Source: Gemmatimonadota bacterium (GTDB lineage Bacteria; Gemmatimonadota; Gemmatimonadetes; Gemmatimonadales; GWC2-71-9). Taken from it: a DNA stretch of 38,487 bases. The position numbers and the translations under genes were made by a program. How positions within the stretch are numbered: position 1 is the first letter of the stretch; each line of letters opens with the position of its first letter. Below are positions 13,131 through 16,694 of this stretch, piece after piece. Where the stretch lies: contig PNAE01000007.1 in assembly GCA_003169895.1 (NCBI GenBank), positions 867,918 to 906,404 on the forward strand, read 5' to 3'. The notes beneath the pieces are model-generated. The model had not been told where the DNA came from. It did no database searches and was given only the letters and a program-made list of their open reading frames with translations.

Positions 13131-13213
13131 AGCGATTCGCATCGCACGACACCGTGCCGTTCGGCGAAGGTCACTCAACAACCCTATTTACGCTCCGGAT
13201 CAGGAGAGCACCG

Positions 13214-13635
<422 letters not shown>

Positions 13636-13639
<4 letters not shown>

Positions 13640-15076: not shown

Positions 15077-15304
15077 ATGGGCAGCTTTCGCTGGACTCCC
15101 GAGCGGATGGAGCAGCTGGAGCACGCAGTGCAGCGCCGCAAGCGCGTGACGCTCCGGCGGCGCGGCAGCGAGTATGTCGTGGTCGCTTCGGCTCTCAAGC
15201 AATCACGCGGACGCGATGCGCTGGCGGGTTACCTGGCCATGACTGGCGAAGAAATGCTGTTCGTTCTCGGCGACCTCGATCACTTCCAGGTGCTCGACTC
15301 CTGA
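15077..15304 (+). CDS. Small protein of unknown function upstream of the RNase H-like gene
   Basis: A 75-residue product starting M-G-S-F-R-W-T-P-E-R-M-E-Q-L, with a basic strand-like segment (R-R-K-R-V-T-L-R-R-R-G-S-E-Y-V-V-V-A) and an acidic end (M-T-G-E-E-M-L-F-V-L-G-D-L-D). No signal or membrane segment, and no strong ribosome site before the ATG. I do not recognise the family. The alternation of a basic hairpin and an acidic helix suggests a compact nucleic-acid-associated domain, but this is a guess. It ends about 23 bases before the likely RNase H start and probably shares its transcript. Confidence 0.6.
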   Translation: MGSFRWTPERMEQLEHAVQRRKRVTLRRRGSEYVVVASALKQSRGRDALAGYLAMTGEEMLFVLGDLDHFQVLDS

Positions 15305-15327
15305 CCATACAGCCGCTACCGGTAGCG

Positions 15328-15933
15328 TTGGTCCACCTGGACGAGAGTTGCCTCGGCAACGGCAAACCCGGCGACAATCCCGGCGGCGCGGGCGGGCTCG
15401 TGGAAACCCGGACGCCACGCGGCATTGAACGCCGGGACCTTTTCATCCATTCGCCTGCGACGACCAACAACCGCATGGCATTGAGCGGCGCGATCGCAGT
15501 GCTGCAGCTGCTGGGACAGAAAGGGAACCGCCTCAGAGTCCTCATCGTTTCCGATTCCGAGTATCTGGTCAAGGGCATTCGTGAGTGGGCCCCCGGCTGG
15601 GAGGCGCGGAACTGGACGCGGAAGGGCGGGGCCATCGAAAACCTGGAACTCTGGCGAACGCTCTCGCATTCGCTCACCAGGCACGATGCGCAGTTCACCT
15701 GGGTCCGCGGGCACGCCGGACATGCGAAGAATGAATACGCCAACGACCTGGCGGTACGCGCGGCATCGGAACAGGTCACGTCCGCGGGAGTTGTCGCGTC
15801 GGGTTTCCCGCAATGGCTGGCGGCGCGACAGGTCAAGGGCAAGTTTCCCGGATACGATCCGGACGTGAGCTTCAGCGCGCTCGAATCGCGGCTTGTCGGT
15901 GGAGAACGCATCGCGCTTGCGGAGGGGGCATGA
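15328..15933 (+). CDS. RNase H-like protein lacking the second catalytic acidic residue
   Basis: The RNase H fold begins directly at V-H-L-D-E-S-C-L-G-N, so the TTG at 15328 is the likeliest start (201 residues). CTG at 15301, overlapping the small gene's stop, is an alternative. Against E. coli RNase HI, the first Asp (Asp5), the third (Asp76 in V-S-D-S-E-Y), the loop His (His129 in R-G-H-A-G-H) and the last Asp (Asp140) are kept. The helix motif reads T-T-N-N-R-M-A-L, where the family has T-T-N-N-R-M-E-L: the essential Glu is Ala51. Glu6, next to Asp5, might compensate. A 50-residue C-terminal extension rich in aromatic and basic residues follows. The stop overlaps the next gene. Confidence 0.82.
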   Translation: MVHLDESCLGNGKPGDNPGGAGGLVETRTPRGIERRDLFIHSPATTNNRMALSGAIAVLQLLGQKGNRLRVLIVSDSEYLVKGIREWAPGWEARNWTRKGGAIENLELWRTLSHSLTRHDAQFTWVRGHAGHAKNEYANDLAVRAASEQVTSAGVVASGFPQWLAARQVKGKFPGYDPDVSFSALESRLVGGERIALAEGA

Positions 15934-16694
15934 CTGAGCTGGAAGGGTTCGCCGCCGCGCTGCTGGGGCAGTGGCGCGCTGGAGGCGGCAAGGGCGGTGG
16001 ACCGATCGCGGTGAGCGAGCTACTGGCGCGGGTGTTTCCGTACCGGGTCGCGCGACGGATTCTCGGCATCGATGTGAGCGAGGACTACGAGGCGTTGGTG
16101 CTGCGATTGCTGTCCGAAGAACAGGATCTCGTGCGCGTCGAGCCAGTGGACGCGGCGGACATGGCGCGCGTCACCATCACTTCCAGGCTGCCGGACCTGG
16201 AGGTGCTGCAACTGCTGCGCGCCGCCACGCTGACGCTGACCGACAGGGCGATCGCGCGACTCGACGGCGTGCTGCCGATGCCAGCCCCGAAAAGTGACTC
16301 GAAGTGGGCTGAACCGGACCTGTCGACGGGACCGGACCCAGAGGCATCGCCGCGATTGATCGACCCCCACGCGGGCGGAGCAGAACCACGTCCAGCAGCG
16401 ACCACGGATGATGACGACATCATCCCGCTCCGGGCTGAGCGCGAAGCGGAGCCCGCTCACCCTATGCCGATGGGCCCACCGCCGGCATTCCTCACCACCG
16501 TGTCGTTCACGCCTCCGACTACCGAGCACTGCTGGAGTTGCGCGGAATCGTTGCCGGCCGATCGACCGGTCACGTTCTGCCCGTTCTGCGGGGCGGATCA
16601 GCGGCAGCCGGCGTGCGCAGCCTGTGGGGCCGGTGTGGAGCGGAAATGGAAGCACTGCCCTGATTGCGGCGTGCAACTCTGGTCGCGGGCGTAG
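15930..16694 (+). CDS. Protein with C-terminal double zinc ribbon, function unknown
   Basis: The ATG at 15930 overlaps the RNase H-like stop and has a strong GGAGGGGG ribosome site. The product has 254 residues. The N-terminal 115 are helical (L-A-R-V-F-P-Y-R-V-A-R-R-I-L-G-I, L-P-D-L-E-V-L-Q-L-L-R-A-A) and have no family I recognise. A Pro/Asp/Glu-rich linker of about 80 residues follows. At the end are two zinc ribbons: Cys201/Cys204 with Cys217/Cys220 (C-P-F-C-G-A-D) and Cys229/Cys232 with Cys243/Cys246 (C-P-D-C-G). This is the double zinc ribbon arrangement of adaptor proteins. Coupling to the RNase H-like gene suggests a common role. Confidence 0.8.
   Translation: MTELEGFAAALLGQWRAGGGKGGGPIAVSELLARVFPYRVARRILGIDVSEDYEALVLRLLSEEQDLVRVEPVDAADMARVTITSRLPDLEVLQLLRAATLTLTDRAIARLDGVLPMPAPKSDSKWAEPDLSTGPDPEASPRLIDPHAGGAEPRPAATTDDDDIIPLRAEREAEPAHPMPMGPPPAFLTTVSFTPPTTEHCWSCAESLPADRPVTFCPFCGADQRQPACAACGAGVERKWKHCPDCGVQLWSRA

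Follow-up and report, generated by a model that had tools for sequence, protein, structure and literature searches.

LC9-type RNase H1, with a glutamate next to the first catalytic aspartate, is the usual RNase H1 of Gemmatimonadota

Can a protein of the RNase H family that carries an alanine in place of its second catalytic carboxylate still cleave RNA-DNA hybrids, and if so, which residue takes the place of the missing glutamate? The question is raised by a reading frame in a 38,487-nucleotide stretch of DNA from a Gemmatimonadales bacterium (hereafter the window), at 15328–15933 of the forward strand, which encodes 201 residues from a TTG codon and whose translation runs LVHLDESCLGNGKPGDNPGGAGGLVE...TTNNRMALSGAI...VSDSEYL...RGHAGHAKNEYANDLAV... 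We consider, with a probability of about 0.9, that the product of this gene is the only RNase H1 of the bacterium, that it belongs to the LC9-RNase H1 type, and that Glu6 serves as its second carboxylate, the metal geometry and the activity being those that we infer below.

Active site and fold

Translation and alignment with Escherichia coli RNase HI place D, E, A, D, H and N of the window protein at E. coli positions 10, 11, 48, 70, 124 and 134, respectively, all encoded on the forward strand. D5 and E6 (15340–15345) form a first motif that reads DES instead of DGS; Ala51 (codon GCA, 15478–15480) stands at the position of Glu48, so that NNRMAL replaces NNRMEL; D76 (15553–15555) and H129 (15712–15714) are the equivalents of Asp70 and His124. 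An earlier note on this DNA had pointed out the alanine and the D-E pair, both of which we find, and had added that the other catalytic aspartates and the loop histidine were kept. This last statement holds for Asp10 (D5), Asp70 (D76) and the histidine (H129) but not for Asp134, whose position is occupied by Asn139 (15742–15744) in the alignment, where KNEYAND of the window protein faces ENERCDE of E. coli. The motif of the window protein is thus D5-E6-(A51)-D76-N139.

The reading of the bases is sound. Glu6 and Ala51 are found in every same-genus homologue that covers the two sites, and the synonymous codons used by these relatives vary (GCA, GCG or GCC for Ala51; GAG or GAA for Glu6). Hence the view that an ordinary RNase H1 has here suffered a sequencing error or a private mutation finds no supporting point, and its probability is negligible. 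Homologues sharing both the D-E pair and RMAL, for which the earlier note had proposed a search, do exist: they comprise the same-genus relatives and Protein Data Bank (PDB) entry 4ibn.

The fold is that of a type 1 RNase H. The protein matches Pfam RNase_H (PF00075) with an E-value of 2.4e-25, and up to an E-value of 0.1 this is its sole Pfam match, without any match to RNase_HII. Among PDB entries, 4ibn (E-value 5.7e-54; the best E. coli entry reaches 1e-25) is closest to it in sequence; this entry, entitled "Crystal structure of LC9-RNase H1, a type 1 RNase H with the type 2 active-site motif", shares DES, RMAL, TDS and NEYAN with the window protein in the sequence alignment. An AlphaFold2 model, computed from 48 aligned relatives (mean pLDDT 94.4), also has 4ibn as its best structural match, with Z 24.0 and an rmsd of 2.7 across 188 residues that take in the C-terminal extension, the next best structure reaching Z 18.6 over 137 residues. 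The extension of about 50 residues, already seen in the earlier note, is present (15778–15930, forward strand); the model predicts two helices in it (residues 160–169 and 178–190), it aligns with 4ibn up to residue 197, and its Trp163 is invariant in 48 aligned sequences.

Spread and linked residues in Gemmatimonadota

Homologues were identified in 367 of 394 Gemmatimonadota genomes, a few of them being canonical RNases H, and the best 80 of 374 genome-contig loci bear Gemmatimonadota titles, except for two labelled simply "bacterium". The window's own genome has one RNase_H match and one RNase HII (with the motif IDEVGRG), and we found no other gene of the RNase_H family in it. Three genomes (G198, G252 and G288) encode a canonical RNase H1 with DG, Glu48 and Asp134 (loci L056, L055 and L054, respectively), which lies on a long branch in the tree; we looked for an LC9-type gene in these genomes and found none, and the LC9-type gene has probably been replaced there by a canonical RNase H from elsewhere. 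In three other genomes (G211, G133 and G181) no RNase_H match was found. The LC9 variant, described from one metagenomic clone, is thus the usual RNase H1 of the whole phylum, and an annotation that expects DEDD could misjudge such an enzyme as inactive.

The two unusual residues go together. None of the 162 distinct complete sequences of the shifted type (163 rows, the window being counted twice) departs from Glu6 and Ala51, six more partial rows agree at the sites that they cover, and all 12 canonical rows have a glycine after the first Asp together with Glu48. Among the shifted and canonical rows, no intermediate was found with a glutamate at both sites or at neither; the sequences were gathered by similarity to the window protein, a sampling that favors the shifted form. 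All complete sequences of the shifted type keep D5, E6, D76 and H129, and the fourth site is Asn in 123 rows, Asp in 37 and His in three. In a quick maximum-likelihood tree from which the fourth-site column was excluded, shifted and canonical rows are separated with an SH-aLRT support of 99, and a single origin of the shifted form appears likely from these sequences. On the same tree the fourth site requires at least 19 changes and Glu6 and Ala51 require none. Weak support for many inner branches, and the meeting of long branches at the root, make this count an approximation and leave the single origin unproven.

These data suggest, with somewhat better than even odds, a scenario in which the glutamate left helix A for strand 1 on a single occasion, no later than in the common ancestor of the sampled Gemmatimonadota, and was then locked in place, while the fourth ligand was freed and switched many times between Asn, Asp and His. 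The E. coli mutants D134H and D134N reportedly both remain active, as would be in keeping with the variation seen in nature at this site; structures of the two mutants are available in the PDB (1kvb and 1kvc). If the single move and the freed fourth ligand are true, the clade represents a natural series in which the rebuilding of a two-metal active site can be tested. The natural variation of the fourth ligand (Asn, Asp, His) supplies proteins that could serve directly in experiments on the metal site.

Two scans of viral contigs, made to look for relatives bearing the shifted motif, revealed no phage source for it: every true RNase H encountered was canonical (DG, Glu48, Asp134). Matches to phage and plasmid records were all below 60% identity. 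Seven viral loci with TTNNRMAL (L179–L185) were rejected as relatives because they encode a different protein, in which an N-terminal part is joined to an RNase H-like part with EGS for DGS and SSC for TDS; its catalytic carboxylates therefore seem to be absent. The N-terminal part resembles YbiA-type proteins.

Function, gene start and neighboring reading frames

By the proposed mechanism, the second carboxylate would no longer sit in helix A, where E. coli has Glu48 and the window protein Ala51, but would be supplied by Glu6 of strand 1, beside the first Asp, as in RNase H2. Asn stands in for the fourth carboxylate. The metals would be held by D5, the relocated E6 and D76, and H129 and N139 would act as His124 and Asp134 do. 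The suggestion made in the earlier note that Glu6 may have taken over in a shifted metal site gains support from the linkage of Glu6 and Ala51 across the 162 sequences and from the title of 4ibn. Alternatively, the protein might be an active RNase H1 with fewer metal ligands (D5 and D76, perhaps with one metal or a dependence on Mn2+), Glu6 being merely structural. Crystals of the E. coli mutants E48A and E48A/D134N were obtained with Mn2+ (1wse and 1wsg), so that metal can bind in the absence of Glu48, and the fourth site is only loosely conserved across the family (N, D or H). Yet Glu6 is constant in the 162 complete sequences, no sequence lacks both Glu6 and Glu48, and the 4ibn title speaks of a type 2 active-site motif, which makes this alternative unlikely.

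The earlier note had also considered a binder of RNA-DNA hybrids, that is, a catalytically dead RNase H fold. Such a role could account for the Ala and Asn at the positions of Glu48 and Asp134, and active-site mutants of RNase H can indeed bind the hybrid, as seen in the structures of human D210N with hybrid (2qkb and others). It is nevertheless very improbable, and our data do not support it. D5, E6, D76 and H129 would hardly be kept in all complete sequences of the type by a dead protein; the gene is the sole RNase H1 of its genome, and the three genomes mentioned above have a canonical enzyme in its stead. Moreover, comparison with six same-genus genes gives dN/dS values of 0.08–0.10 (dS 1.1–2.4, near saturation in some), and a ratio of about 0.09 points to strong constraint on the protein. 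Finally, as summarized in PMC6411959, complementation yielded twelve RNase H genes from leaf and branch compost, and one of the enzymes obtained lacks the DEDD/E motif and still has RNase activity (Kanaya et al. 2010). This enzyme would be LC9 itself. Given purifying selection and an active homologue, the window protein likely cleaves hybrids such as those of R-loops and primers by the ordinary two-metal mechanism, in which Glu6 would supply the second carboxylate.

The start of the gene probably lies upstream of the TTG at 15328. The frame upstream of this codon is open and conserved across the same-genus loci, and one of these loci (L004) has no usual start codon at the equivalent position. 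Two others (L005 and L007) have a GTGA that overlaps the stop of the preceding reading frame, and the window equivalent is CTGA at 15301–15304. Because of this conservation and of the matching GTGA and CTGA, the gene would start at the CTG at 15301, with nine additional N-terminal codons (15301–15327, forward strand) and a product of 210 residues.

The preceding reading frame (15077–15304, forward strand) encodes 75 amino acids and lies directly upstream of the RNase H gene; a tblastn search found it in the same place at 24 of 29 other family loci, its stop and the RNase H start overlapping or nearly so. It has no match in Pfam or NCBIfam. The two genes likely belong to the same operon, and the small protein is possibly a functional partner of the RNase H. 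Elsewhere in the window, a reading frame at 13154–13639 (forward strand, 161 amino acids, PAKKAKKAKKAKKAAKKTARKAARKA...) is very rich in Lys, Ala and Pro and resembles the histone H1-type tails of bacterial DNA-binding proteins. Downstream, the reading frame at 15813–16694 (forward strand), whose start and hence whose overlap with the RNase H gene are putative, ends with a double zinc ribbon (Pfam DZR, 2.6e-6).

Comparison with known RNases H

Among the systems compared, RNase HII (RnhB) of the same genome (G000:C8:1341038-1341589) has, like the window protein, a glutamate directly after the first Asp (IDEVGRG), but it belongs to a separate family. The likeness to E. coli RNase HI (RnhA) extends to the fold, the first and third Asp, the histidine of the catalytic loop and the TTNNRM segment. 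On the other hand, the window protein has Ala for Glu48, Asn for Asp134 and Glu for Gly11, and it carries extra C-terminal helices. Ala51 and Asn139 set it apart from canonical RNase HI with its DEDD motif, and it scores 116 bits against the NCBIfam rnhA model PRK00203, below the cut-off of 160 bits.

The closest known relative is the metagenome-derived LC9-RNase H1, in which the glutamate has reportedly moved from helix A to strand 1, adjoining the first Asp, as in RNase H2. The window protein shares with it the D-E pair, the Ala at the Glu48 position, TDS, the histidine, the Asn at the Asp134 position, a loop insert after GNG and the C-terminal extension, with 46% identity over 188 residues; the two differ in sequence, and no difference was seen in their motifs. 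The glutamate after the first Asp, the lack of Glu at the Glu48 position and Asn139 are those of the LC9 type, whose active-site motif is called an "atypical DEDN active site motif" in the work of Nguyen et al. (2013, FEBS Lett 587:1418), as cited in PMC4423430. A limited search of the literature on Gemmatimonadota RNase H1 and on D134N in RNase HI returned nothing. The window gene is a further member of this published variant, crystallized in 2013, and the relocated glutamate is therefore not new; what is new here is only the spread of the LC9 type over the phylum and the drift of its fourth ligand.
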